Assembly: GCA_947072905.1 (NCBI GenBank) | Contig: CAMTKF010000023.1 | Location: 1 to 39,945 of the forward strand | Source: an uncultured Bacteroidales bacterium | GTDB lineage: Bacteria; Bacteroidota; Bacteroidia; Bacteroidales; Muribaculaceae | DNA: 39,945 nt | Direction: 5' to 3' | Program-made: the position numbers and the translations under genes | In this document: piece after piece, positions 6,701-16,617 of the stretch | Layout of the letters: the number at the start of each line of letters is the position of its first letter | Position numbering within the stretch: the first letter of the stretch is position 1 | Notes under the pieces: model-generated | Told to the model about the DNA's origin: nothing | The model's database searches: none | Seen by the model: the letters and a program-made list of their open reading frames with translations, nothing else

Positions 6701-6756
6701 CCGAGTATTTTACAGTATTCTCCCCCACTAAAGAAAAAGAACTAAAACCATTCTAA
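3739..6756 (+). CDS. Phage primase-helicase (zinc finger, Toprim, SF3-like ATPase)
   Basis: A 1,005-residue replication protein. C38-x2-C41 and C59-x2-C62 form a CHC2-like zinc finger. A Toprim domain follows, with the acidic E-G-E-K-K-A motif near residue 249 and D-S-D near 299 (DUF3854-like). The C-terminal third is a superfamily-3-type helicase: Walker A ending G-A-G-K-S near 705-711 (its first Gly replaced by Ser), Walker B I-F-I-D-D near 748, sensor L-I-T-T-N near 793 and an Arg-rich K-R-R near 806. It would make primers and unwind DNA at the replication fork. It lies in the early operon between the LuxR-type regulator and a DnaA-like protein. The end of the gene carries the AACCATTCTA decamer. 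Confidence 0.92.
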   Translation: MNTNLKYDRWEVDRVKALDIRLLIPGCNQHKATVEMECPACGKKKFNVIHKGDKNFAYCHACQFRLGGPIEAVAHYAGIDLKNNWLDALEETARQGGIILTPNERKKEEAVQTAVKTTRSSFCGSQLEGSGLSVEDVMATTLEGSQETLRSPFRPGRVDEKFTPDESGSDMLIYYYDLHGRPMTYIGKGSGRPRPYVRVRWANPALHKSPDGKEMKYQTPAGASCRVYIPEKIRRLFKNKAHINTLFLQEGEKKAEKACKHGMLSIGIQGINNFGSQESGLLQDIQEIVVACSISNIVLIMDSDWNDLHRNIIVGDRADKRPNSFSRAVIKYRQYMKTFANMGLNMNIWWGHVNVNEHGDKGVDDLLCGSLLGREPELMEDIEHTMNSHDGRGKWLNIHKITEESDTKIRDFWLLNDVQAFYELHKERLSAVDTFKIGPIRYKIENGKIVPMSRYSSTTDIYTITQNSKGEDKVEFNDVEAFRFLGASGFYRLRNSDEEASGFEFIRMDNGIIDRIAPYEVRDFIREYINANCKSDIVLQFFAKRLATIMADKQLENLAIMSDDFNNFSSGVQRTYYNNGQVEITANSITPDQPINQVWRSRIVPRKFKRVPIIKDIRMEDGRFYIEYTDAANSCEFLHFLINTSNNFFPAGGERTLSDDETFEWIHHIVNKITTLGYLLCDYKYASERKAVVIQDHLMSEVGQSHGGAGKSIVGNAIGRICNQFFIDGKQMKRDDEFLLSGVTKATRNIFIDDVKTNFSFENLFAMVTGPMYVNPKGKDRYCIPLEDSPKILITTNHAINKANEAATKRRISYMEFSTWYNPEHTIVDDFHHMFFDDWSPEQWNLFDNLMAECVMYYLRSFENCWAREGQGAVQPPMRNIELRTLRQEMSEVLYQWAEEYFDPSGSNLNDRKKRADLVASFFEYAGGPAGHGVTRTNFKGKIQAYCKFKGYDFNTNRPNADKMYYSDWKPLHPDESFIGEDDKSGGAEYFTVFSPTKEKELKPF

Positions 6757-6758
6757 TC

Positions 6759-7061
6759 ATGTATAATAACGAACTCGCTATCTCGGTGGTCAGTAGCGTC
6801 ACCGGAATCTCCAAGTCAACTATCCTCTCGCCAAGCCGCAAATGGCCTGCTGTAGAGGCCCGGATGCTTATCACGCTGCTGTTGTCGCATGACGGCGCCA
6901 CAGATGAAGCAACCTCCTTGGTGTTGAATCGCTCCCGCGTATCCACTCTTAAATCACGTCATAATGCCATAGACATGATGGATATATCAAAAGTGTTCCG
7001 CGACAAGTTTAACCGCATAAAACAGTTGTACGATGAGCAAAAATCCTTACGAATATCTTAA
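6759..7061 (+). CDS. DnaA domain IV-like DNA-binding protein
   Basis: A 100-residue protein resembling only the C-terminal DNA-binding domain of DnaA: residues 8-40 match the V-x-x-x-x-G-I-S-x-x-x-I-L-x-x-S-R-K-x-x-x-V-E-A-R block, and residues 50-75 parallel the helix that contains D-H-S-T-V in DnaA, here N-R-S-R-V-S-T. There is no AAA+ ATPase. Directly after the primase-helicase, it may bind the phage origin and recruit the replisome, or compete with host DnaA. It starts 2 bases after the primase stop and overlaps the next gene by 29 bases. A general HTH regulator is the alternative. Confidence 0.7.
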   Translation: MYNNELAISVVSSVTGISKSTILSPSRKWPAVEARMLITLLLSHDGATDEATSLVLNRSRVSTLKSRHNAIDMMDISKVFRDKFNRIKQLYDEQKSLRIS

Positions 7062-7380
7062 AACCGACTGCCTTGAGGATGTTGCCCCGGTAGAGTCTCA
7101 GTCCACCTGGCAGGTTACAGACAGCAACGACGAATCCATTTTTATACACACCTCTCAACTTCCTGACGGACACTGGGTGTATGGCTATATGGTATACTGG
7201 AAAAACGGGCGGCAATCTATGCTGCGCACCTCGGCCGAAAACGGGCTGTTCAATTCTCAACGCGAATCACAACTCTACGCCATAGGCTTCATGCGGCTGT
7301 ACCTCTCGTATTTCCAAGCGGAAACCCGCGACGCAATCACCCGGGCAGAATCCCGTCTTATCCAAGCAGAACTATTCTAA
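7033..7380 (+). CDS. Hypothetical early protein
   Basis: A 115-residue protein with no recognised family. The middle section is beta-rich with several aromatics, and the C-terminus is one long amphipathic helix. It overlaps the DnaA-like gene in another frame and precedes a lipoprotein gene. Replication-operon context suggests an accessory replication or takeover role, but nothing specific can be seen. Confidence 0.6.
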   Translation: MSKNPYEYLKTDCLEDVAPVESQSTWQVTDSNDESIFIHTSQLPDGHWVYGYMVYWKNGRQSMLRTSAENGLFNSQRESQLYAIGFMRLYLSYFQAETRDAITRAESRLIQAELF

Positions 7381-7391
7381 AAAATATCACT

Positions 7392-7745
7392 ATGCTACAC
7401 AAACTAACCATTCTGATCGCTGTTGCCCTTGCCGGCTGCACTCAGTCAGTCGAGTACATCTCAGCACAGCCAATGCCGGCCACCGAGGCCGTTGTTGACC
7501 AAGCCACAATCCCGGCCGAATTCTCAATCATCGAACAGCATCCCAAGGGGTATTTTATCCGTGTCGCCAGTTCGGGCCGTGCATCTATCGGCTCTATCCA
7601 GGACGTAGCGACCGCCCTTGGCTGCAAGTTCGACCGCGTAGACCTCTGCACCTTCACCGCCCATGAGCGCGGCGACGAGTACGCATCGATTATCGACGGC
7701 AAACTATACGACTATGTCAACGACAAAATAACTACACTCAATTAA
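7392..7745 (+). CDS. Small lipoprotein
   Basis: A 117-residue protein with a lipoprotein signal: basic-hydrophobic start and lipobox L-A-G-C with Cys16. The mature part has no known domain. Its C-terminus, E-R-G-D-E-Y-A-S-I-I-D-G-K, is nearly copied in the tiny gene at 8786. The decamer-like AACCATTCTG lies 14 bases into the gene. A phage lipoprotein in the early region may act in superinfection exclusion, as several known phage lipoproteins do; that is inference. Confidence 0.65.
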   Translation: MLHKLTILIAVALAGCTQSVEYISAQPMPATEAVVDQATIPAEFSIIEQHPKGYFIRVASSGRASIGSIQDVATALGCKFDRVDLCTFTAHERGDEYASIIDGKLYDYVNDKITTLN

Positions 7746-7758
7746 TCCCTTTCAACAA

Positions 7759-8586
7759 ATGAACAACCATTCTATTGCAGCTCGTTTCCACTTTCAAAAC
7801 TGCTCAGTGACAATCAAGGTCGACGGCGAGATGATAATATCTCGTTCGGCATCCAATGCCCCGGGAGATGTTGCACTCGACCGCAACTTCACTCCCGAAG
7901 ACGACCCAACAACATTCATCGGTCAACACAACGAATTTTACAAATTCCTTAGCCTGACCAGCACAACCAATACTTCGATGATTCTCAAATGTACAGCCAT
8001 CGGCTACATGCTGTGCAACAGCCTCCCGCGCGGCGGCATGCGCTCTCGTAGCTTTGTTTGCTGTAACGAAGACGAAGGAGCATGCGCAAACGGGAAAAGT
8101 CTTTTCTGCCGTGCTATAGCGGAATTAAGCAATCCAGCATTTCTGGACGGCAAAATTAATCGAACTTCCGGCAATTTTATCCTCAGCGCTGTTGATGAAC
8201 ACACTACCGTAGCCGTGTTTGATGACATTAAGCTGAGTCAGGCTAAATTAGACCGCTTCTATCCCATTTGTCCCGGAGAGTGGAGAATCGCCAGAGTAGG
8301 CCGTCCTGAATTGATTCTTGAAAGGGAAATAGCTCCTTATGTCTTAATAACCACTAACACTCCGGCTTATCAATTCTTGCACTTTGCCTCTGCTGTTCGC
8401 CGTTTCGTTCCGCTGGAGTTCTCATCATTCTTCTCCGTCGATAATCCAGTGGTTTCTCACTTTGGCCATGCGCTATTCGGCGATTGGGATGCCGCGCAGT
8501 GGCACTTATTCGACAACTTCATGTTCTACTGCGTCCGGGAGTATCTTCACGTTTACCGCAACATGATTGACCCGTTCCGAGTATGA
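7759..8586 (+). CDS. Stand-alone SF3-type ATPase, paralog of the primase-helicase C-terminus
   Basis: A 275-residue protein that follows the helicase part of the large primase in order: I-G-Y-x-L-C near residue 75, a textbook Walker A (G-A-C-A-N-G-K-S, about 107-114), Walker B V-F-D-D near 152-156, L-I-T-T-N near 196 and R-R-F near 212, then F-G-D-W-D-A-A-Q-W-x-L-F-D-N-F near 237 paralleling F-D-D-W-S-P-E-Q-W-N-L-F-D-N-L. The zinc finger and Toprim are absent. It may form mixed rings with the large helicase or act alone. The decamer AACCATTCTA falls in codons 3-6. Confidence 0.8.
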   Translation: MNNHSIAARFHFQNCSVTIKVDGEMIISRSASNAPGDVALDRNFTPEDDPTTFIGQHNEFYKFLSLTSTTNTSMILKCTAIGYMLCNSLPRGGMRSRSFVCCNEDEGACANGKSLFCRAIAELSNPAFLDGKINRTSGNFILSAVDEHTTVAVFDDIKLSQAKLDRFYPICPGEWRIARVGRPELILEREIAPYVLITTNTPAYQFLHFASAVRRFVPLEFSSFFSVDNPVVSHFGHALFGDWDAAQWHLFDNFMFYCVREYLHVYRNMIDPFRV

Positions 8587-8789
8587 GCGCCCCAATTTTT
8601 AACATCGGTGACCGTGTTGTCGTGTCGGCAACTCTAACGGGTTGGGGCGAAGACCTCACTGGTACTGTCACAGACACAGAAATGTGGCAAGGCCTCCAAC
8701 TTCTCACAGTAACTTACGATAAAACCCTCCCCGATGGCAGAAATGGCATTGTGGTATACAGTTATCAACAAATAAAATTAATCAAATGA
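8583..8789 (+). CDS. Hypothetical protein, possible SH3-like fold
   Basis: A 68-residue protein beginning F-x-x-G-D-R-V-V-V, with a later G-x-V-T-D and a C-terminal Y-x-Y-Q-Q-I-K-L-I-K strand. This order is typical of small SH3-like beta barrels (KOW or similar). It overlaps the ATPase gene by 4 bases and the next tiny gene by 4 bases, so it is probably part of a translationally coupled chain. Function unknown. Confidence 0.6.
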   Translation: MSAPIFNIGDRVVVSATLTGWGEDLTGTVTDTEMWQGLQLLTVTYDKTLPDGRNGIVVYSYQQIKLIK

Positions 8790-8923
8790 ACAAAAAAAGT
8801 ATCTTCATGCTTACCGTAACCGAATTGACCCGTTCCGAGTATGAGCGCGGCGACGAGTACGCCTTGATCATCGACGGCAAACAATACGATTATGAAAAAG
8901 ATATGATAACACCAATAAACTAA
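8786..8923 (+). CDS. 45-residue chimeric mini-protein
   Basis: Starts at the ATGA overlap with the preceding gene and ends TAA at 8921. Its DNA is a patchwork of two nearby genes: 8824-8848 is identical to 8566-8590 (end of the ATPase gene and start of the next), and 8841-8894 matches 7663-7716 (lipoprotein C-terminus) at 49 of 54 positions. The encoded part R-G-D-E-Y-A-L-I-I-D-G-K keeps the reading frame of the lipoprotein. It may be a duplication relic rather than a working gene, although the frame is open and coupled. Confidence 0.55.
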   Translation: MNKKSIFMLTVTELTRSEYERGDEYALIIDGKQYDYEKDMITPIN

Positions 8924-8933
8924 ATCAGAAACA

Positions 8934-9200
8934 ATGCAAATTAAAGGAAAAATCATTGTCGCACTCCCCGAGGTAAGCGGCACAAGCCAAGCCGGTAAGG
9001 CATGGCGCAAACGTGAATATGTTCTTGAGACCCAAGAACACTACCCCAAGAAAATAGCCTTCACGGTTATGAATGAACGTGTCTACGAATTCAATCTACA
9101 GGTGGGAGCCACCTATACCGTGGACGTAGATGCAGAAAGCCGTGAGTATAACGGCAAATGGTATACAACACTAACGGCGTGGAAAACTACGCCGGCATAA
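8934..9200 (+). CDS. DUF3127 family protein, OB-fold-like
   Basis: An 88-residue protein beginning M-x-I-x-G-K-I-I-x-x-L-P-E-x-S-G-T-S-x-A-G-K-x-W-x-K-x-E-Y-V-L-E-T, followed by Y-P-K-K-I-A-F. This is the signature of DUF3127, a small Bacteroidetes domain with an apparent OB-fold pattern. Among replication genes, a single-stranded-DNA-binding role is plausible. Ten bases separate it from the upstream mini-gene. Confidence 0.8.
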   Translation: MQIKGKIIVALPEVSGTSQAGKAWRKREYVLETQEHYPKKIAFTVMNERVYEFNLQVGATYTVDVDAESREYNGKWYTTLTAWKTTPA

Positions 9201-9217
9201 ACACTAAATAAACTCAA

Positions 9218-9442
9218 ATGAACGAAAAACAAACATCAACCGCAACGGTAATAATCCTCATAGTGGCCGTTGCCACCTTCCTGGCCTTTCTGGTTCTAAA
9301 ACTCTGCGGTCTCCTTGCCTGGTCTTGGTGGTGGATAACCGCCCCGGCGTGGATCCCGGTGCTGCTCGTCCTGCTTGCACTTGGCTTTCTGGGCTTATGT
9401 CTGATGATACTGTCATACGTAGCTAAACGTCGTATCAAGTAA
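9218..9442 (+). CDS. Two-helix membrane protein
   Basis: A 74-residue protein that is nearly all membrane: hydrophobic helices at about 9-31 and 39-66, separated by a Trp-rich loop with S-W-W-W, and a basic end (A-K-R-R-I-K). This layout fits a small inner-membrane protein such as an exclusion factor or an early holin-like protein, but the holin candidate in the lysis cassette is at 26570. The family is not recognised. Confidence 0.6.
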   Translation: MNEKQTSTATVIILIVAVATFLAFLVLKLCGLLAWSWWWITAPAWIPVLLVLLALGFLGLCLMILSYVAKRRIK

Positions 9443-9444
9443 CT

Positions 9445-9675
9445 ATGGACTTCTCAGAACTGTTTGCTGACCAGCTCACAAGAATGGCAGTGGCCTATGA
9501 GAAAGATGCTGAAGCCCAAGGCAAGAAGCACATGGGCGGAGCATTTCTCAACGGTTATCAAACCGCAGTTTATCACATGCTGCAACAATTGGGACAAACT
9601 CCACAAGTAGCTTACATGCTTCATCAATATCTTAACGATTTAATGAAGGGATTTGAGATACTGGCTCGTAGATGA
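9445..9675 (+). CDS. Hypothetical alpha-helical protein
   Basis: A 76-residue protein, probably fully helical, with no membrane segment and no known motif. It follows the membrane protein by 2 bases, so it is likely in the same operon. Nothing further can be supported. Confidence 0.55.
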   Translation: MDFSELFADQLTRMAVAYEKDAEAQGKKHMGGAFLNGYQTAVYHMLQQLGQTPQVAYMLHQYLNDLMKGFEILARR

Positions 9676-9704
9676 GGAGTTCAACCTAATCTAAAAATAG
9701 ATAT

Positions 9705-9902
9705 ATGATTTTCAAAGTATTTTTCTCTATGGCACGTAAGTCCGAATTCAATATTCGTGAGTGCCGGATCTTCGCCGTCGAAAACGGTCAAGCTCTCGAA
9801 CGTCGAATCGAAAACACAATCTCAAATCTGAAAGCTGACGGCTTTTCGGAGGTGCATGTCGAGGACTGCTTCAACATCTCAGAACCGGACCGCATCCCAT
9901 AA
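9705..9902 (+). CDS. Hypothetical small protein
   Basis: A 65-residue protein; a second Met at residue 9 (9729) could be the true start, since the first eight residues are hydrophobic and unlike the rest. The remainder has alternating helices and strands without a known motif. Its stop overlaps the ATG of the zinc-ribbon gene by one base (TAATG), indicating coupling. Confidence 0.5.
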   Translation: MIFKVFFSMARKSEFNIRECRIFAVENGQALERRIENTISNLKADGFSEVHVEDCFNISEPDRIP

Positions 9903-10063
9903 TGAAGCCGATAAAGCGTAGCAACGGAGTAGAATGGTATGCCGACGGCACCATTCTACTCTTCCGTTGCCCCGAGTGCAAGCGCGAGAACTATGCTCCG
10001 GCAGTCGCCGATGGCGTGTGCTGCTGGTGTGGTTATAAACCTAAACCAATAAAAAAACAATGA
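9902..10063 (+). CDS. 53-residue zinc-ribbon protein
   Basis: The start overlaps the previous stop by one base and the end overlaps the next start by four. Cys23-x2-Cys26 and Cys40-x2-Cys43 (with an extra Cys41) form a treble-clef or ribbon-type zinc site, and the C-terminus is basic. Small zinc ribbons like this often bind nucleic acid or RNA polymerase. The mRNA contains a long hairpin inside the gene, listed separately. Confidence 0.7.
   Translation: MKPIKRSNGVEWYADGTILLFRCPECKRENYAPAVADGVCCWCGYKPKPIKKQ
9921..9970 (+). promoter_or_regulatory. Long hairpin inside the zinc-ribbon gene, carrying the decamer and its complement
   Basis: Arms 9921-9938 and 9950-9970 pair over 18 bases, interrupted only by a 3-base bulge at 9961-9963; the loop is 11 bases. 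The inner arms are AGTAGAATGGT and ACCATTCTACT, which contain the complement of, and a 9/10 match to, the AACCATTCTA decamer found at several gene starts. The hairpin may shape translation or mRNA stability, or present a pairing arm. Confidence 0.6.
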
Positions 10064-10416
10064 ACACAGAAGCTTCAATACTATTATCAAAAATCGAGGC
10101 ATGGTCTCAGGCCGACCTCGAGAACCGAGCCGCTGCAGTAGCACTGTCAGACGATAAAACCGGCAATTATTATATTCACTATGCAGGCCCTGTCAACAAG
10201 ATCGCAAAATGTGTGAGTGCAATCATGGAGGACGATCTCCAAACAGCAGCCGCTATCTACGGAGCTATGACACTGTTTGCTCACAAGACTTTCTCGCAGT
10301 CGTTTATCGACTACACTAATGCGAATTGCGCACGCGTGGCAGAGCTGAGAAAAAAAGGCAAAAACGGTGACGAAATACGCAAAATCCTGACTGAATACTA
10401 TGAAAGTAACAATTGA
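10060..10416 (+). CDS. Hypothetical early protein
   Basis: A 118-residue, mainly helical protein with no recognised family. It is linked by ATGA overlap to the zinc-ribbon gene and overlaps the next gene by 17 bases. No membrane segments or catalytic motifs are seen. Confidence 0.6.
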   Translation: MNTEASILLSKIEAWSQADLENRAAAVALSDDKTGNYYIHYAGPVNKIAKCVSAIMEDDLQTAAAIYGAMTLFAHKTFSQSFIDYTNANCARVAELRKKGKNGDEIRKILTEYYESNN

Positions 10417-10618
10417 AATTTCAAAAACCGCAGTCCTTCAGGCCGCTTCTCTATCCGGAATGAATGAAACTGTTTATGAGAAGCTTCTTGATGTCGTTAA
10501 CGAAGTCGAAGATGTAGATATTACAGAATCTGTTAACAACAGCCAAGAACTCGCTTCTATGCCGCTGCTCGTTTCATTGGGCGTTCTTATAGCTTTATCT
10601 GACAAACTTGATAACTGA
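10400..10618 (+). CDS. Hypothetical acidic protein
   Basis: A 72-residue acidic protein (many Glu and Asp between residues 28 and 48). An initial strand is followed by helices. Small acidic early phage proteins are often inhibitors or DNA mimics, but no such match can be demonstrated here. Overlap with the upstream gene argues that it is expressed. Confidence 0.5.
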   Translation: MKVTIEISKTAVLQAASLSGMNETVYEKLLDVVNEVEDVDITESVNNSQELASMPLLVSLGVLIALSDKLDN

Positions 10619-10621
10619 ACA

Positions 10622-11032
10622 ATGATCCTTCACCGCTTTTGCTCGCAAGCCGAGTATGACAAATATATGGCAGGGGAAACTCTCGTCAATTATAAAGACC
10701 ACGGTGCATATCGCGGCTATGCGGCAAGCTCGGCTGTTGGCTTCTGCTTCTTTGTGGAATCCCCGGAGAAGCGGAAGCATCAACTGAGCGGCATTGTCGA
10801 TTTCGACGTGTGCCTTACAGTCGAAGTCGACCCTTCAAAAGTCAATCTGTGCCACGGCCGTTATACTCTAAGAATAAACGGCCGATACGTGGGCGCAGAA
10901 AATGTAATGGAATACTGCACCACCACCTACAACAACAGGGAATTCAAGCTGATTAAAGCCGATAAGTCTTTCAATGGCTACGCCCCGAATGGTAGCCTGT
11001 TTCGACAAATATTCCCTAATTTATTCTTATAA
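10622..11032 (+). CDS. Hypothetical protein
   Basis: A 136-residue protein. It opens with L-H-R-F-C-S, includes Y-R-G-Y near residue 38 and a central beta-rich part. The early His and the R-G-Y/S-S-A layout faintly recall phage ADP-ribosyltransferase-like proteins, but the catalytic set is not clear, so I assign no function. It lies 3 bases after the preceding gene and just upstream of the antirepressor. Confidence 0.55.
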   Translation: MILHRFCSQAEYDKYMAGETLVNYKDHGAYRGYAASSAVGFCFFVESPEKRKHQLSGIVDFDVCLTVEVDPSKVNLCHGRYTLRINGRYVGAENVMEYCTTTYNNREFKLIKADKSFNGYAPNGSLFRQIFPNLFL

Positions 11033-11037
11033 CAAAA

Positions 11038-11550
11038 ATGACAAATGCAATCACAAAAATCAACGGTGTAGAAATCGTGGCCGTTGATCATGATGGGGAA
11101 ATTTACGTTCCTATCAAGCCAATCTGCGATGCAATAGGCATCGATTACAAGACGCAACATGAAAAAATCTCAGATGATGATTTTCTTGCTCCAACTATGG
11201 GGATTATCCCCACAGTTGCCGCCGATGGGAAGATCCGAGAAATGTGCTGTCTGCAGCTTCGCTACGTCTATGGATGGCTGGCCACCATCAACCCAGGCAA
11301 AGTTGCCGAGTCGGCTCGCGATGCAGTTATCCTTTACCGCCGCGAGTGCTACGAGGTGCTTTATGAGCATTTCACGGGGTCGATGCGGCGCACCATCGAA
11401 ACAAACAATGCCGAAATTGAACTCCTGAAGAAGATCAACAGCGCCATTGCCGACGAGAAGGAAGCCAAGAACCGAAAGAAGAAAGCCGAGGAATCGTTGG
11501 CCAAGCTTCGCTCTGAACGGCTGAATCCTCAGCCGTCTTTATTCCTCTAA
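11038..11550 (+). CDS. Phage antirepressor (P22_AR_N-type)
   Basis: A 170-residue protein. Residues 1-110 match the P22 antirepressor N-terminal pattern: strand-rich start with V-P-I-K-P-I-C-D-A-I-G-I-D, then the Q-L-R-Y-V-Y-G-W-L-A-T-I-N-P-G-K-V block and R-x-E-C-Y-E-V-L. A charged coiled-coil tail runs from 120 to 160. Proteins of this family bind and inactivate phage repressors. Here the obvious target is the repressor at 2462. It sits late in the early operon. Confidence 0.87.
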   Translation: MTNAITKINGVEIVAVDHDGEIYVPIKPICDAIGIDYKTQHEKISDDDFLAPTMGIIPTVAADGKIREMCCLQLRYVYGWLATINPGKVAESARDAVILYRRECYEVLYEHFTGSMRRTIETNNAEIELLKKINSAIADEKEAKNRKKKAEESLAKLRSERLNPQPSLFL

Positions 11551-11553
11551 GTC

Positions 11554-11838
11554 ATGGGAGAGCTTCCAGAAATCAGGCTATCACAACCGCCACCCCCACC
11601 GCGAAAGATGGCGACACCTTCGCCCTGGCATAAGGTTGGCGAGGCAGAGCCGGAGGACTGCACGCCGGTGCTTATCAGGGTTTATTATAAATCCGCCAAG
11701 ACAGGCAGGTTTACAGCCGAATTCGGGGTGTTTTACTACATGGCTGAGTTTGGTGGTTTTTCCTTTTATGAAAAGATAAAACGACGTTTGGGCTTGAAAG
11801 TCACCCATTGGATGCCAATTCCACCGGTTCCAAAGTAA
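11554..11838 (+). CDS. DUF551 domain protein
   Basis: A 94-residue protein. After a Pro-rich start (five Pro in a row), residues 25-94 show the DUF551 order: W-H-x-V-x-E-x-x-P-E-D, a strand ending V-L-I-R-V-Y, and the C-terminal V-T-H-W-M-P-I-P-P-V-P. DUF551 proteins are common in phages and have no settled function. It is the last gene of the long early operon. Confidence 0.8.
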   Translation: MGELPEIRLSQPPPPPRKMATPSPWHKVGEAEPEDCTPVLIRVYYKSAKTGRFTAEFGVFYYMAEFGGFSFYEKIKRRLGLKVTHWMPIPPVPK

Positions 11839-11877
11839 AAATATGCCCTGCAATGAATATTTTTTTTACAAAATAAT

Positions 11878-11908
11878 TTTGATATTAGAAATAATATCAT
11901 TAACTTTG
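11878..11908 (+). promoter_or_regulatory. hicAB promoter with dyad operator
   Basis: TTTG at 11878-11881, a 19-base spacer and TAACTTTG at 11901-11908 form a canonical Bacteroidetes promoter. Inside the spacer, GATATT-n6-AATATC (11881-11898) is an inverted repeat, placed where the HTH of HicB could bind and repress. HicB autoregulation is well known; the site itself is inference. Confidence 0.6.
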
Positions 11909-11934
11909 TATTGTTAATTAATCAGAGACCGAAA

Positions 11935-12132
11935 ATGAAATACAAAGAACTCCACAGAATCCTCCGCAAAGCCGGGATGATTGAGCTGAGCGAGCAACGA
12001 GCCGGACATAGGCTCTGGCTCAATCCTCAGACAGGCGAAAAGTTCACAACGAGCAATCACTTAATGCACGAAGTTGCATCAGGAACACTAAAATCAATCC
12101 TCCGCTCGGCAGGACTCGAAAAGAAAAAGTAA
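11935..12132 (+). CDS. hicA: HicA-type mRNA interferase toxin
   Basis: A 65-residue protein. The ATG at 11935 is chosen over an upstream TTG because it gives the standard HicA start (M-K-x-x-E-L-x-x-I-L-R-K-A-G). The G-H-R-L-W segment keeps the catalytic His of HicA, and the C-terminal half has the usual V-A-S-G-T-L-K-S-I-L-R-x-A-G-L. HicA cleaves mRNA and stops translation. It is paired with HicB downstream, the toxin-first order of hicAB. Confidence 0.88.
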   Translation: MKYKELHRILRKAGMIELSEQRAGHRLWLNPQTGEKFTTSNHLMHEVASGTLKSILRSAGLEKKK

Positions 12133-12138
12133 AAACGA

Positions 12139-12168
12139 AGAGAGGGGCTGGCACCCCGGTCCCTCTCT
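12139..12168 (+). promoter_or_regulatory. Intergenic hairpin between hicA and hicB
   Basis: AGAGAGGG (12139-12146) pairs with CCCTCTCT (12161-12168) around a 14-base GC-rich loop. It is not followed by a T-run on the + strand. It may protect or process the mRNA so that toxin and antitoxin are made in different amounts. Confidence 0.5.
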
Positions 12169-12185
12169 CTTAAAAAACAAGAGAT

Positions 12186-12584
12186 ATGAAGACAATAAGA
12201 GTATTTATAGAACGCGCTAAGGACGGTATATATAGCGCATATATGCCCGATGATAACAAGCTCTCATTTAACGCTATCGGCGAGGGTGCTACTGCAAAAG
12301 AGGCACATGACGATTTTATGGCCGTGGTTGAAGCTTTCCGTGTTGACTTCCCCGAGGAAGTGGCCGAGCTTCAATTTGAGTTCTCCTACGACCTCGCCTC
12401 ATTTCTTGCCTACTATAGCGGCAAACTCACCCTTGCCGGATTGTCACGTATTACAGGCGTGGCCCAGGGGCAGCTCTCGCACTACATCACCGGTCATCGC
12501 AACCCATCTCCACGTACCGTTGAGAAAATCAACCAAGCACTCCACTCGTTTGGAACAGAATTAAGTCAAGTTCATTTCGTCTGA
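12186..12584 (+). CDS. hicB: HicB-type antitoxin with C-terminal HTH
   Basis: A 132-residue protein. Residues 1-60 have the partially degraded RNase-H-like HicB fold (E-R-A-K-D-G-I-Y-S-A-Y, then G-E-G-A-T-A-K-E-A-H-D-D-F). Residues 68-125 form an XRE-type helix-turn-helix with L-A-G-L-S-R-I-T-G-V-A-Q-G-Q-L-S-H-Y. It would neutralise HicA and repress its own promoter. The stop codon falls inside one of the two 13-bp inverted repeats that bracket the cassette. Confidence 0.87.
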   Translation: MKTIRVFIERAKDGIYSAYMPDDNKLSFNAIGEGATAKEAHDDFMAVVEAFRVDFPEEVAELQFEFSYDLASFLAYYSGKLTLAGLSRITGVAQGQLSHYITGHRNPSPRTVEKINQALHSFGTELSQVHFV

Positions 12585-12625
12585 TTAATTAACACCTTTC
12601 GACTTTTTGGTCTTGACACGCCCTC

Positions 12626-12649
12626 GCCCACCCCGGCGGGGGCTTTTTT
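12626..12649 (+). terminator. Rho-independent terminator after hicB
   Basis: A GC-rich stem (GCCC at 12626-12629 with GGGC at 12640-12643, plus inner C-G pairs) followed at once by six T. It ends the hicAB transcript. The start of the next promoter lies immediately downstream. Confidence 0.6.
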
Positions 12650-12666
12650 ATACCGAAAATAATAGC

Positions 12667-12675
12667 TAAATTTGC
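12667..12675 (+). promoter_or_regulatory. -7 element directly before a small gene
   Basis: TAAATTTGC at 12667-12675, five bases before an ATG. Transcription would start almost at the start codon, giving a nearly leaderless mRNA. The -33 region overlaps the T-run of the terminator and is weak. Confidence 0.45.
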
Positions 12676-12679
12676 GACT

Positions 12680-12859
12680 ATGAGTAAAAAAATAGTTACA
12701 TCTGAGGAACGTGAAATGTGCCGAATCGCTCCTAATTCTTTTACAGCTGAATCTGTTCGGTTCCGGTTGGCCATGCTACAACTTGCAAAGGCAGTAAACA
12801 AGGACGTGATTACTGCTAAAACGTTAATCAAACGGCTTAAATTTCTGGCAAAGGGTTAG
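12680..12859 (+). CDS. Small basic protein
   Basis: A 59-residue protein: M-S-K-K-I-V-T-S-E-E start, a helical middle, and a Lys-rich end. No family is recognised. It has its own promoter-like element, sits between the hicB terminator and the promoter of the BRCT gene, and is therefore likely a single-gene unit. It could be a small DNA-binding protein. Confidence 0.5.
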   Translation: MSKKIVTSEEREMCRIAPNSFTAESVRFRLAMLQLAKAVNKDVITAKTLIKRLKFLAKG

Positions 12860-12894
12860 CGATAACATTTTACCTTTACCGTCATGTTTTTTTG

Positions 12895-12926
12895 TTTGGC
12901 GTTGTAACATATTTGTCGTATATTTG
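12895..12926 (+). promoter_or_regulatory. Canonical promoter for the BRCT gene
   Basis: TTTG at 12895-12898, exactly 20 bases, then TATATTTG at 12919-12926. The decamer AACCATTCTA (12937-12946) lies in the short leader before the ATG at 12952. Confidence 0.7.
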
Positions 12927-12951
12927 CGGCAAAACAAACCATTCTAATCTT

Positions 12952-13872
12952 ATGAATCCATCATTCATATTCTTTCATGCTGAAAACGTTAACGAGACGC
13001 AGAACAGCATCTGCCATCTCGTTATAATACCTGTTGTTGATGGGCAAGCTGAGTCACCCCAAGAGTTCTTTCTGAACCCTGAAGCACCTTTCGTGATGGT
13101 GATGTCGGGCATCACATCCTCACAAGTAGAATCCTTCGAGCCATTCAGCTCACAATGGCCACGGATTCAGACAATCTTCAGTAAGTTTGATATAGCCGTG
13201 TCTTCAGCCGAGGGGAGCTCAGCCCGTTCACTTTATGGCACCCTCACCCGCCTGGGTATCAACTTTGCTCCAATTACTTACTGTAACGCCAAAGCTATTT
13301 GCCGCCGAACTATAGATGCTGTTTCATACAGTTTAGACTACCTCAGCTACAAGTTTTACAACTACTGCATCTATAGCGAAGACCCGGTTGGTATAGCCAA
13401 ACGCTGGTGCGAACTTGCGCTGCGCAGTCTCTCAGATGTTCAAGAAGAAAACATCGTTGAGTTCTTGAACAGTCATAAGATAAAGCCAGGCCTCATAGCC
13501 CAGGAAGCTTTCACCCCCTCACTCTGTATCCGCGACTATTCAGCCCGGAAGAAACAAGTCTTCGACCCATCGGGTGTGGCCATAGCTGCACAACCCGACA
13601 ATCCTTTGTTCGGTATGGATGTAGTCTTTACCGGGAAGATGGAGGCCATGACGCGCAACGATGCGAGAGCAGCAGTTGTGAAGATAGGCGGAAACGCTCC
13701 GGAACGCCTTACAAAAGACACAGACTTCCTTGTTGTCGGAGTTCAAGATTTGCGCGTTGTGGGCGAAAAAGGGCTTAGCGGTAAGATGAAAACCGCAGAG
13801 AAATATCGTGCAGCTGGCTGTCCGATAGAAATTATAGATGAAAGCGAATTTATAGAGATGCTAAATACTTAA
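12952..13872 (+). CDS. Degenerate DnaQ-like exonuclease domain fused to BRCT
   Basis: A 306-residue protein; ATG 12952 is preferred because the longer reading starts at a TTG inside the promoter. Residues 1-170 follow the DEDD exonuclease layout of DnaQ-like proteins of the D-x-E-T-A-N type, but the first catalytic Asp reads His (H-A-E-N-V-N) and the second-motif Asp in the S-F-D position appears lost (S-S-A-R-S-L), so nuclease activity is doubtful. Residues 222-300 form a BRCT domain (F-T-G-K-M, G-G-N, T-D-F-L-V-V-G, E-F) as in the C-terminus of bacterial DNA ligase. It could bind DNA ends or nicks. Confidence 0.7.
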   Translation: MNPSFIFFHAENVNETQNSICHLVIIPVVDGQAESPQEFFLNPEAPFVMVMSGITSSQVESFEPFSSQWPRIQTIFSKFDIAVSSAEGSSARSLYGTLTRLGINFAPITYCNAKAICRRTIDAVSYSLDYLSYKFYNYCIYSEDPVGIAKRWCELALRSLSDVQEENIVEFLNSHKIKPGLIAQEAFTPSLCIRDYSARKKQVFDPSGVAIAAQPDNPLFGMDVVFTGKMEAMTRNDARAAVVKIGGNAPERLTKDTDFLVVGVQDLRVVGEKGLSGKMKTAEKYRAAGCPIEIIDESEFIEMLNT

Positions 13873-13877
13873 ATAAT

Positions 13878-14108
13878 ATGGAAAAAGAACCACGTAAAAG
13901 ATCGAGTATTGGGCTAGTAGGGATGATAGTTATTCTTTTATCCATTGTCCTCGGCTCATTCCTTGATAATCCATTCATCTTGATATCTGGCATAGTCTTA
14001 GGAGTATTCATACTCTTAACAGCTGTCATTGTTGACCGTCTTGACAACATCATCTATTTGCTACGGCAGATAGAGGAATATTCAAAATCCAACACTCAAG
14101 AAAAATAG
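13878..14108 (+). CDS. Two-helix membrane protein
   Basis: A 76-residue protein with hydrophobic helices at about 11-27 and 31-50 and a charged C-terminal helix that may form a coiled coil. The start lies 5 bases after the BRCT gene, suggesting a shared transcript. No family is recognised. Confidence 0.6.
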   Translation: MEKEPRKRSSIGLVGMIVILLSIVLGSFLDNPFILISGIVLGVFILLTAVIVDRLDNIIYLLRQIEEYSKSNTQEK

Positions 14109-14181
14109 ATTTTCCTGTAAATTATTTTTTATTTCAACATCTTTACCGTAAATTCGGCAAATAAACTTAATCCTATATTCA

Positions 14182-14640
14182 ATGAAAAAATCAATATTTT
14201 TCACTATCGTTTCACTTCTCGTGATGATGACCAGCTGCCTCCCAAAGCATGCTGTGTATGTTGGGCTGTTAGACTATCGCCCGGCCGCCGAATTGTATGG
14301 CGTACAGATGACAGAATCGGATGCCGTCAACTTTGACTATGAGCCAATTGGCTCGCTTATTGTTATTGAACAAAGCGGACAAGTTGAGGTTAAGAAAATT
14401 TCTGTCAATAACGACTATACTCCTAAAAAACAAGTAGATGATGACCTCTATGGCAGCCCATCGTCAACAAGTAAGAAATCTTACGCTAATGCAACAAGCG
14501 AATCTATAATAAAATATATGGCACAAGCCGCAAAAGCTGCCGGCGGTGATTATGTGTTAAATCTCAATATTCAACGAGATCCAACAAGCAAAAAAGGTTA
14601 TACACTAATCGCAACAGGTATGGTGGTAAAAAGAAAATAA
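14182..14640 (+). CDS. Lipoprotein, YbjQ-like flavour
   Basis: A 152-residue protein with a lipoprotein signal ending M-T-S-C (Cys19). The mature part contains Y-E-P-I-G-S-L-I-V and a C-terminal A-A-K-A-A-G-G-D-Y-V-L-N-L-N-I segment, which recalls the YbjQ/heavy-metal-binding or DUF4156 type of small periplasmic domain. That similarity is weak. It could be a lysogenic-conversion or exclusion factor. Confidence 0.65.
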   Translation: MKKSIFFTIVSLLVMMTSCLPKHAVYVGLLDYRPAAELYGVQMTESDAVNFDYEPIGSLIVIEQSGQVEVKKISVNNDYTPKKQVDDDLYGSPSSTSKKSYANATSESIIKYMAQAAKAAGGDYVLNLNIQRDPTSKKGYTLIATGMVVKRK

Positions 14641-14658
14641 TTTTTTTATGCAAAAATA

Positions 14659-14690
14659 TTTGGCAATGTCCCTTACTTGTCGTATCTTTG
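14659..14690 (+). promoter_or_regulatory. Canonical promoter of the structured RNA region
   Basis: TTTG at 14659-14662, 20 bases, TATCTTTG at 14683-14690. It fits the Bacteroidetes consensus closely. No gene begins until 14943, so the first 250 bases of the transcript would be non-coding. Confidence 0.65.
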
Positions 14691-14694
14691 TGGT

Positions 14695-14942
14695 GCTATA
14701 ACCCACGACAGTAAGTCTGTCACCATGAGCGGAGGTTTAGACGCTCGACATTGCCGGGCATTTTTTATGCCATTTTGCTCCCGACATTCGTGTCGTGACC
14801 AAGACATACAGTAGCCCTCTACGGCTACCTTTCCGAACTTCATAATACCTCCCTTAGGGGCAGACTATCATGGGTTATAGCAACGGAAAGGTAGCCGTTT
14901 TTATGTCTGCCTAAATGCTATAACCCATGATAGTCAAACATC
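14695..14942 (+). ncRNA. Highly structured leader or non-coding RNA with pseudoknot topology
   Basis: Small hairpins occur at 14707-14721, 14727-14746, 14757-14771 (with a T-run in the loop) and 14782-14795 (TTCG loop). Downstream, 14821-14835 pairs perfectly with 14884-14898 (15 bp), and 14863-14882 pairs perfectly with 14916-14935 (20 bp). The second helix starts inside the loop of the first, giving either an H-type pseudoknot or two alternative folds. AGACATA/TATGTCT (14802-14808, 14902-14908) extends the first helix. A relative of the 20-base element occurs at 14695-14712. The region ends just before an ATG at 14943, so it may control that gene. Confidence 0.6.
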
Positions 14943-15317
14943 ATGTATCAAACCATTCTATTCAAAGCGCCCGGGCGCCGCTCTAACTCGCCCGTAGTGA
15001 TTCTCAACGCGCTATCTCTGCGCAAGTCATTAACCATTGGCCGCCGCCTCTCCCACGCCCTCTCGATGGCATGGAGCCGGGCAAAGTGCATCTGTACGCC
15101 CCGGAACATCCTCCGCGCCCTGTTCTGCGAAAAAGCGGCTATGGCCGTGGCTGCAGTTCTTATCTGCGCTGTATGGTGGCACAATCTTACAATCACCGAC
15201 AGCACCGCCGCCGGCAAAGCTGTTGCCACGGACTGCCTTTGGGCACTCCCCTGGGGTATAGTGTGGGCTATCCGCGCCACTCTCATGCCCATGCCAAAGG
15301 AAGGAGGTGAGCTATGA
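14943..15317 (+). CDS. Hypothetical membrane protein
   Basis: A 124-residue protein. A basic N-terminal half (many Arg and Lys between residues 11 and 48) precedes one hydrophobic helix at about 66-82 and a second weaker one at 96-115. The decamer AACCATTCTA lies in codons 3-6, inside a 14-base match to the candidate small RNA. It overlaps the HNH-like gene by 4 bases. Family unknown. Confidence 0.55.
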   Translation: MYQTILFKAPGRRSNSPVVILNALSLRKSLTIGRRLSHALSMAWSRAKCICTPRNILRALFCEKAAMAVAAVLICAVWWHNLTITDSTAAGKAVATDCLWALPWGIVWAIRATLMPMPKEGGEL

Positions 15318-15640
15318 ATCCCGTACCTCAGAACTACCGCGTTTTCAACTTCTTCGGCTGGCGCATTTACATCACACGTCACCGACTGCATAAACGCTCT
15401 GCAGGTCGCTCAAAGAAGCGCCACCTTTGCAAAAGCGAACGCCTGCGCATCGCTGACTATAATTGCGAAATGTGCGGTGCCCCAATTGACATCCGTTGCT
15501 CACTACATCACCTCCTGCCGGTAGGCGCGCCTGAACGAAACACCGTTCATTATTGCCGGGTCGTGTGCCCCGTTTGCTCTGAACGCATACAGCATGCAGG
15601 TGGCATCCGCCATATACTCGAGAAAGGAGGTGATAAATGA
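15314..15640 (+). CDS. HNH-like zinc-finger protein
   Basis: A 108-residue protein with a basic start. C-E-M-C-G near residue 54, H-H-L-L-P-V-G near 69-75 and C-P-V-C-S near 91 follow the HNH endonuclease order of zinc Cys pairs around a His-His motif. The usual terminal His after the last Cys is Ser, so nuclease activity is uncertain. Such genes often lie near packaging genes of phages; this one instead precedes the control region. It overlaps both neighbours by 4 bases. Confidence 0.65.
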   Translation: MNPVPQNYRVFNFFGWRIYITRHRLHKRSAGRSKKRHLCKSERLRIADYNCEMCGAPIDIRCSLHHLLPVGAPERNTVHYCRVVCPVCSERIQHAGGIRHILEKGGDK

Positions 15641-16110
15641 GCCGCCTTACTCCTATCCCCGTCATCACTATCGATATAGACGCTTTTGATGACGATGATT
15701 CCGGACGCGTAATTCTGCATCCTGTTATCCGGGCCGAAGCCGGCGGTTATTCTCTGGGCACTCTCGCCCTTAACGAAATGCCGGATCTCCATCGCCTCCG
15801 CGCTCGCATCGACGAATTCATTTTTAATAACAATATCCCTATGGACGAACAAGAATCACTCAATTTAAAACCGCCCTATACCGACATCATAGCGGGGTAT
15901 CTGGCAGGCTACCGCCCGATGAACCGGGACAACTTCAATGTCAAGGGCATGGAAGTGCGCACATCGCAGGAAATCATCCTTGATCTGGCCGACATGGTAG
16001 ACATAGAACTGAACGAAGTAGCGGCAGCCATGAGCTGGCTTGGCTACAAGACTTGTGTGATTGACCACAAGGTGGGGTGGCTGCTGGGCCGGAGCGAAGC
16101 GAGCGAATAA
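15637..16110 (+). CDS. Hypothetical protein
   Basis: A 157-residue protein with an acidic N-terminus (D-D-D-D near residues 18-21) and a helical C-terminal half. The end (W-L-L-G-R-S-E-A-S-E) is short of the terminator by about 50 bases. No family is recognised. It is the last gene of the three-gene unit led by the structured RNA. Confidence 0.6.
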   Translation: MSRLTPIPVITIDIDAFDDDDSGRVILHPVIRAEAGGYSLGTLALNEMPDLHRLRARIDEFIFNNNIPMDEQESLNLKPPYTDIIAGYLAGYRPMNRDNFNVKGMEVRTSQEIILDLADMVDIELNEVAAAMSWLGYKTCVIDHKVGWLLGRSEASE

Positions 16111-16159
16111 CAGTCGCAAGTCTCCGTTGAACAAATCGGAGTCGACGGTATCTAAAAGC

Positions 16160-16197
16160 AAGCGGCGCATCGTTATCACAACGGTGCGCCGCTTTTG
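16160..16197. terminator. Strong bidirectional terminator
   Basis: A 15-pair stem (16160-16174 with 16180-16194, one G-T pair) closes a 5-base loop. TTTT follows on the + strand and a T-rich tract follows on the - strand. It can end the unit at 14.9-16.1 kb and also a leftward transcript from 16.35 kb. Confidence 0.75.
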
Positions 16198-16350
16198 GTT
16201 GCTTCTTTTCGGAGTAGCAAACCATTCTATTTCCTTTCAGTCAATAGCGCCTGAAGGCGATGACTATCAAATATCTTGTATTGAACCTATGTGGATTGCC
16301 TTATATATATACGTTTTCATGTATGTGTATGCACAAAAACGCGGTATTAT
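16160..16350 (-). ncRNA. Candidate leftward small RNA carrying the decamer complement
   Basis: A leftward promoter (next entry) would start an RNA at about 16349 that ends in the terminator hairpin at 16160-16197, about 190 bases. On the - strand it contains a small CGCC-TTCA-GGCG hairpin, then an apparently unpaired region with TAGAATGGTTTG (16229-16218), then the terminator. No convincing protein is encoded. The TAGAATGGTT segment complements AACCATTCTA near the starts of at least five phage genes. Confidence 0.5.
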
Positions 16351-16354
16351 ACAT

Positions 16355-16387
16355 GCAAAGTTAGGCAATGTCAAGAGTATATGCAAG
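16355..16387 (-). promoter_or_regulatory. Leftward Bacteroidetes-type promoter
   Basis: Read on the - strand: CTTG at 16387-16384, a 20-base spacer and TAACTTTG at 16363-16356, the same -7 sequence as the hicAB promoter. It points away from the late genes and toward the bidirectional terminator. Confidence 0.55.
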
Positions 16388-16601: not shown

Positions 16602-16617
16602 TGTTTCACGTGAAACA
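16602..16617. promoter_or_regulatory. Exact canonical parS (ParB-binding) site
   Basis: TGTTTCACGTGAAACA, the 16-base palindrome bound by chromosomal ParB proteins across bacteria. All 16 positions match. It lies in the 16.4-17.0 kb non-coding control region. No ParA or ParB gene is visible in the window, so the host ParB would be the likely partner. Confidence 0.85.

Follow-up and report, generated by a model that had tools for sequence, protein, structure and literature searches.

The window analysed here is the whole 39,945-nucleotide stretch (bases 1-39945) that makes up contig 23 of a 94-contig, 2.69 Mb assembly. It is read as a temperate phage, and beyond the end of its g15637 operon it carries a leftward unit that probably encodes a small phage RNA acting in trans, which would pair with the starts of several genes of the same phage and block their translation. 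This is the best-supported reading, and it is preferred because the place of the matches at start codons, their strand, and their change in step with the RNA fit in six of ten phages compared, with two others (L004 and L090; L numbers denote related loci) left unexplained. The features concerned are listed in Table 1.

Table 1. Features of the leftward unit, candidate target sites and the g14943 leader
Feature	Position	Strand	Basis or remark
Leftward promoter, Bacteroidales type, TTG-N20-TAACTTTG	16356..16386	-	Sequence pattern; -7 consensus from PMC7366714
Proposed small RNA, ~190 nucleotides, both ends inferred	16155..16350	-	Promoter position; fold
Putative pairing stretch; RNA contains the complement of CAAACCATTCTATT	16218..16231	-	Core same in L002, L039; variant in L007, L041, L056, L066
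Hairpin between g15637 operon end and leftward RNA; likely terminator	16162..16192		Predicted fold, covariation
Best candidate target, g14943, +6 to +19 from ATG, 14 nucleotides exact	14949..14962	+	Rank 1 of 64 start windows
Candidate target, g12952 (BRCT gene) 5' leader, -17, 12 nucleotides exact	12935..12946	+	Kept in L002
Candidate target, g7759 codons 3-6, +6, 12 nucleotides exact	7765..7776	+	Rank 3 of 64
Weaker candidate target, g7392 (lipoprotein-like signal peptide), +14, one change	7406..7415	+	Rank 11 of 64
11-nucleotide match 14 bases before g6759; encodes primase C-terminus Lys-Pro-Phe-stop	6745..6755	+	Coding explains match
One-mismatch copy encoding Glu-Leu-Phe-stop of g7033	7370..7379	+	Coding
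Promoter of g14943 operon, TTG-N20-TATCTTTG	14660..14690	+	Sequence pattern
Arm A, leader 5' end right behind promoter, complementary to B	14694..14712	+	Complementarity
Arm C, complementary to D, 15 nucleotides perfect	14821..14835	+	Complementarity
Arm B, complementary to A' (20 nucleotides perfect) and to A	14863..14882	+	Complementarity
Arm D	14884..14898	+	Complementarity to C
Arm A', ending 7 nucleotides upstream of g14943 ATG	14916..14935	+	Complementarity to B

The Bacteroides -7 consensus is described as TAnnTTTG, with TTTG near -33 (PMC7366714). A canonical leftward promoter had been called at 16387-16356 in a sequence-only reading of this DNA; TTG-N20-TAACTTTG stands there, at 16386-16356, and a perfect TTGACA-N17-TATAAT at 16374-16346 overlaps it. 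By eye, L056 keeps both promoter types (16346-16386), as L007 and L090 very nearly do. When 37 de-duplicated loci were searched for the Bacteroidales pattern (spacer 18-22, up to 1,150 bases upstream of the g17002 homolog), it was found 626-802 bases upstream in 19 of them, 17 of these at 626-722, and L101 has it only at 59; the loci include near-identical sets (L004, L043 and L059; L003 and L065), the matches of L072 and L073 are probably accidental, and the count is not set against a chance rate. L066 retains the -7 part without the -33 TTG. A promoter pattern applied to viral contigs brought in six further loci (L128-L130 without any query gene, L131 on a contig already included, L127 and L132 with the leftward unit and lacking the early genes), and the two matches that such a pattern gave in 397 genomes of the window's family were both already in the set.

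At its other end the unit is bounded by a hairpin with 14 consensus pairs, 10 of which show two-sided changes among 10 sequences, and this hairpin may also serve the rightward g15637 operon. The terminator proposed earlier at 16160-16197 corresponds to this predicted, covarying fold, which was not listed by a simple terminator scan and whose leftward T-run is short. Promoter and hairpin are both conserved in related phages. The RNA stretch of the window folds better than shuffles (z -3.2), and an alignment of relatives gave no consensus structure outside the hairpin. Protein coding by the leftward unit was rejected, no reading frame being kept across the RNAs of eight phages: the frame at the ATG in the motif's complement is open in the window phage (W in comparisons) and runs 22 codons in L007, but in L002 and L039 it meets a stop after only 2 and 3 codons, respectively. 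The leftward units of L004, L048 and L057 hold AATACC-containing blocks in at least two copies, and a matching pairing stretch was not found there.

The unit had been noticed through a decamer, AACCATTCTA, said to occur in five exact copies and in a one-change copy at 7406; these positions are correct and all lie on the plus strand. Closeness to start codons holds as well, the distances, counted from the start of the decamer or of the extended match, being -13/-14 (g6759), +14 (g7392), +6 (g7759), -15/-17 (g12952) and +8/+6 (g14943). With up to one mismatch on both strands there are nine matches, which include additional one-mismatch copies at 7370 (+), 9930 (-) and 9949 (+), whereas 100 shuffles averaged 2.15 and never reached nine. 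The exact decamer occurs eight times in the whole assembly, five of these in the 40 kb contig. The earlier figure of 0.04 expected copies nevertheless makes the count look more striking than it is, since the motif was picked with the sequence already in view: among 100 simulated sequences, the most frequent 10-mer of one strand reaches five copies once at each of Markov orders 1, 2 and 3 and ten times at order 4, and with both strands counted one further 10-mer of the window, CATTGCCAAA, likewise has five copies. The copy count alone is thus modest evidence, too weak by itself.

Not every copy has the look of a target. The copy at 6746 is set aside because a conserved primase Pro-Phe-stop accounts for its sequence: Pro-Phe-stop is the ending of many primase-like homologs, some with as little as about 42% identity (Pro-Leu-stop in L050 and L051, other endings in L045 and L046). 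L048 and L054 likewise have the exact decamer at the primase end, and no matching RNA unit turned up in either. Inside g9902, at 9930-9958, two near-copies form an inverted pair, TACCATTCTA on the minus and CACCATTCTA on the plus strand, of which only the plus copy stays within one mismatch in L002. The three host copies gave no convincing gene start (two lie within longer same-strand open reading frames (ORFs), and the third, L140, is 18 bases inside an ORF of 137 codons overlapped by a longer opposite open frame), in a search confined to the exact decamer.

The likelier targets are g14943, g12952, g7759 and/or g7392. The 14-base match claimed for g14943 is exact between 16218-16231 and 14949-14962, and the g12952 match directly follows that gene's own promoter (TTG at 12896, TATATTTG at 12919-12926). 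The g12952 product is a BRCT protein, g7392 is lipoprotein-like, and g14943 has no assigned function. Of the earlier claim of a trans-acting RNA that tunes replication and middle genes, the RNA itself gains from the kept promoter and hairpin, the strand-specific matches and the joint change of RNA and gene starts; the replication part is weak, the primase-end copy being a Pro-Phe-stop. One could go further and dispense with a regulator, attributing the matches to codon-level constraints (ILFK, PF-stop, signal peptides) and to chance similarity in a fast-evolving intergenic region. The copies at 6746 and 7370 are indeed protein C-termini, the g14943 starts of five sequences encode an invariant ILFK, a five-copy 10-mer arises in 1-10% of simulations, and 4 of the 12 phages examined lack a fit. 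However, the copy in the RNA is non-coding and is kept amid diverged flanks in W, L002 and L039, the g12952 copy lies in a leader, and neither the strand bias nor the swap test described below is accounted for, and we give this explanation a small chance.

The comparison with relatives covered ten phages (W, L002, L003, L004, L007, L039, L041, L056, L066 and L090). Of 14 loci compared at first, nine entered the tests (the ten less L066, which was added); L044, L048 and L057 have the promoter pattern and were dropped, having no target homologs, and L047 and L067 were tested separately. The pairing stretch has an exact match of at least 11 nucleotides to a conserved-gene start in 6 of the 10 phages (W, L002, L007, L039, L041 and L056); in L003 an 11-nucleotide match lies outside the pairing stretch, and L066 has matches of 9 and 10 nucleotides. 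The L002 RNA matches g14943 over 15 nucleotides and the leaders of g6759 and g12952 over 13 and 12. The pairing stretch and the gene starts both differ between lineages and match each other in L007, L039, L041 and L056. Specifically, the L007 RNA and g7392 have ATCCATTCTATT in common (12 nucleotides), the L041 RNA and g7392 share the 11 nucleotides GTATCGCAAAC, and the L056 RNA shares ACAAACTATCT with g14943 and GCACAAACTAT with g7392. The L039 RNA shares AACTAACCATT, at -18, with the gene in the g12952 slot, which is a different gene, exonuclease-like by our reading of its start, whose leader still matches. Co-changed letters extend outside the core (ATCGC in L041, GCAC in L056).

This joint change bears on two other explanations. 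The motif could be the binding site of a phage protein, either a DNA operator or the site of an mRNA-binding repressor, with the copy at 16220 as one more such site; one short sequence repeated within a phage, exact copies all on the same strand, and a motif common to two gene starts of L004 without a matching RNA would all suit this. Yet the copies are placed close to start codons and not at promoters, in coding sequence as well as leaders, about 125 bases separate the 16220 copy from the leftward promoter upstream of it, and the sequence drifts in step with the RNA unit in L007, L039, L041 and L056, also outside the core, which leaves a protein site only a slight chance. Alternatively, the leftward RNA may be real and serve otherwise, as a decoy or sponge, as an antisense RNA opposing read-through from the g14943-g15637 operon, or as an activator of its targets. 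It does face the operon end, with a hairpin common to both, but read-through antisense leaves the co-changing matches at separate gene starts unexplained, and we regard such another role as very unlikely.

Statistical tests point towards pairing in trans with gene starts. Across the ten phages, the RNA body has 17 antisense exact matches of at least 11 nucleotides in the phage that encodes it, 11 of them at ORF starts, and 3 in the other orientation with none at starts, the start windows making up 11.5% of the sequence; at 10 or more nucleotides there are 34 (15 at ORF starts) and 15 (1 at a start). W and L002 contribute 9 of the 17 antisense matches and 7 of the 11 at starts, the remaining eight phages 8 and 4, and two of the six antisense matches off ORF starts fall at starts defined by homology (L007 g7392 +14 and L056 g14943 +5). 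This strand-and-place test is independent of the choice of target genes. When the start windows of nine phages (L090 not among them) were ranked, the decamer sites took the top four of 64 places in W and the top three of 35 in L002, the slot gene was first of 39 in L039, g7392 first of 36 in L041, and g7392 and g14943 first and third of 25 in L056. Ranks were 2, 3 and 5 of 22 in L007 and 3 and 7 in L066, where the top window is the RNA's own place; in L003 the tested conserved gene came first, and L004 had no notable rank.

Each phage's own RNA was also compared with same-length stretches of the same phage, a pseudo-RNA test that gave p <0.05 in 7 of the 10 phages (W 0.0019, L002 0.0021, L007 0.016, L039 0.0019, L056 0.004, L066 0.009, L003 0.045) and 0.08 in L041, for a combined p of 4e-9, or 3.7e-6 without W and L002. 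With the RNAs swapped among phages, the observed total was reached in 1 of 50,000 shuffles, 13 of 50,000 without L002 and 30 of 40,320 without W and L002 (4 of 20,000 in an earlier test on nine phages); both tests are inflated, because the target genes were partly picked after the matches had been seen. Complementarity to distant mRNAs therefore exceeds chance, with negative cases in L004, L090, L047 and L067.

These negative cases and several other observations weigh against the proposed RNA. The pseudo-RNA test shows no fit in L004 (p 0.60) or L090 (p 0.47), nor in L067 (p 0.20, one target) or L047 (p 0.71, two targets), where the RNA ends were guessed. A motif kept in relatives that lack its complement had been named as the outcome that would speak against an RNA, and L004 is such a case: its gene starts carry AATCCATTCTT while its own RNA matches at most 8 bases. 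Own RNAs are best in only 4 of 10 columns of the swap table (L041 fifth, L004 seventh), and RNAduplex energies, computed over long windows, failed to tell a phage's own pairs from swapped ones. Two matches fall outside the pairing stretch, that of L003 and the one ranked third in L066, and the g7759 match is absent from the homologs in L038, L039, L041 and L066. W and L002 are not fully independent, because they share a 71-base-pair block at the g14943 start that is 96% alike. To these are added the inflation just mentioned, the conserved Pro-Phe-stop encoded at 6746, and the weak T-run of a hairpin that the terminator scan passed over.

If the small RNA does act in trans, the following mechanism is proposed. 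A leftward RNA of about 190 nucleotides would be made from the promoter at 16386-16356 and end at the hairpin at 16162-16192, and its stretch complementary to 16218-16231 would base-pair with several of the phage's own mRNAs around their start codons. The partners in the window would be g14943, g7759 and the leader of g12952, with g7392 as a weaker one; those in relatives would be g14943, g7392 or whichever gene fills the g12952 slot. Because the matches lie at gene starts, pairing would most likely obstruct ribosome binding and lower translation. We infer RNA production, pairing, repression and timing in the phage cycle alike from the DNA, and the likely role would be to restrain early or costly genes (g7392, g14943 and the BRCT protein) in the lysogen or in late infection.

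The leader of g14943 appears to hold a second RNA element, with an antisense layout like that of the P1 C4 and P4 CI immunity RNAs, two stretches being complementary to sites at the downstream gene start. Arms B and A' are perfectly complementary over 17-21 nucleotides in 10 of 11 leaders (9 in L047) and arms C and D over 6-15 in all 11, and the arm sequences differ between most phages, changing together. The leader folds far better than shuffles in the window (z -6.6) and in L002 (z -4.3); the segment from C to B alone (14815-14884) folds no better than shuffles (z +1.15). Rfam gave no match at gathering score in the window, L004, L007 or L056, and no C4/CI-type family was among five weak hits. 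Given this layout together with the leftward RNA match, g14943 may therefore be under two RNA controls. A wider circuit is a tentative and rather doubtful extension: the C4-like leader would set the immunity type in cis at g14943, the leftward RNA with its fast-drifting seed would repress g14943 and other early genes in trans, and each lineage would re-match RNA and targets, in bacteria without obvious Hfq or ProQ.

As for the surrounding DNA, the window encodes a head maturation protease, tail proteins and an Ant-type anti-repressor, with weak matches to a large terminase and a DNA primase. Relatives of the primase-like protein are present in 51 of the 397 family genomes. Labels on related loci include Muribaculaceae, Bacteroidales, Barnesiella and Prevotella, with two exceptions, Clostridiales (L090) and Merdimonas; one relative (L043) sits within a 3.6 Mb contig, and a phage-collection search using the region gave no match. 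Next to the anti-repressor at 11038 lies a pair at 11911-12584 that by eye looks HicA-like and HicB-like. The long intergenic stretch upstream of g17002 contains TGTTTCACGTGAAACA, the chromosomal parS consensus, at 16602-16617, and a parS-like core was found in 7 of 20 loci scanned, the window included. The C-termini encoded at 6745-6758 (Pro-Phe-stop), 7365-7380 (Glu-Leu-Phe-stop) and 11520-11550 (Gln-Pro-Ser-Leu-Phe-Leu-stop) resemble single-stranded DNA-binding protein tails and sliding-clamp binding motifs.

Among known systems the nearest well-studied case is GibS of Bacteroides thetaiotaomicron, described as an RNA of about 145 nucleotides with a long pairing region, start-codon pairing predicted for two targets, and binding in vitro (PMC7366714). 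The likeness lies in the long pairing stretch at start codons in a host with no known chaperone, no obvious Hfq or ProQ homolog being known in Bacteroides by the same account (PMC7366714). GibS is, however, chromosomal with metabolic targets and a seed in its 5' part, whereas the RNA proposed here belongs to a phage, has candidate phage targets and carries its pairing stretch nearer the 3' hairpin. Phage P22 likewise encodes an RNA, sar, which by pairing with a phage mRNA prevents initiation of its translation, but the account names one target, ant, where several separate candidates are found here (PMC12197685). VpdS of phage VP882 and PreS of lambda are trans-acting phage RNAs too; they are described as Hfq-binding, with host dnaN as the PreS target, whereas host decamer copies gave no target here (PMC12197685). 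The small RNA svsR, encoded by an E. coli lambdoid prophage, is reported to repress host maltodextrin genes rather than phage genes (PMC12803456). The g14943 leader resembles P1/P7 C4, described as an RNA segment in which two stretches, varying between phages, are complementary to positions just before a start codon (PMC12197685), and differs from C4/CI in being separate from the leftward RNA and without an Rfam match. Nothing similar to the proposed RNA was found among the titles and abstracts of a limited literature search, other literature not being searched.

If the reading of a trans-acting RNA is true, a phage of gut Bacteroidales would control several of its own genes through a small RNA, and the way in which RNA and gene starts drift together would record in nature how antisense RNAs and their targets co-evolve. 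Together with the C4-like leader, this would make a testable RNA-based control system in phages of abundant gut bacteria.

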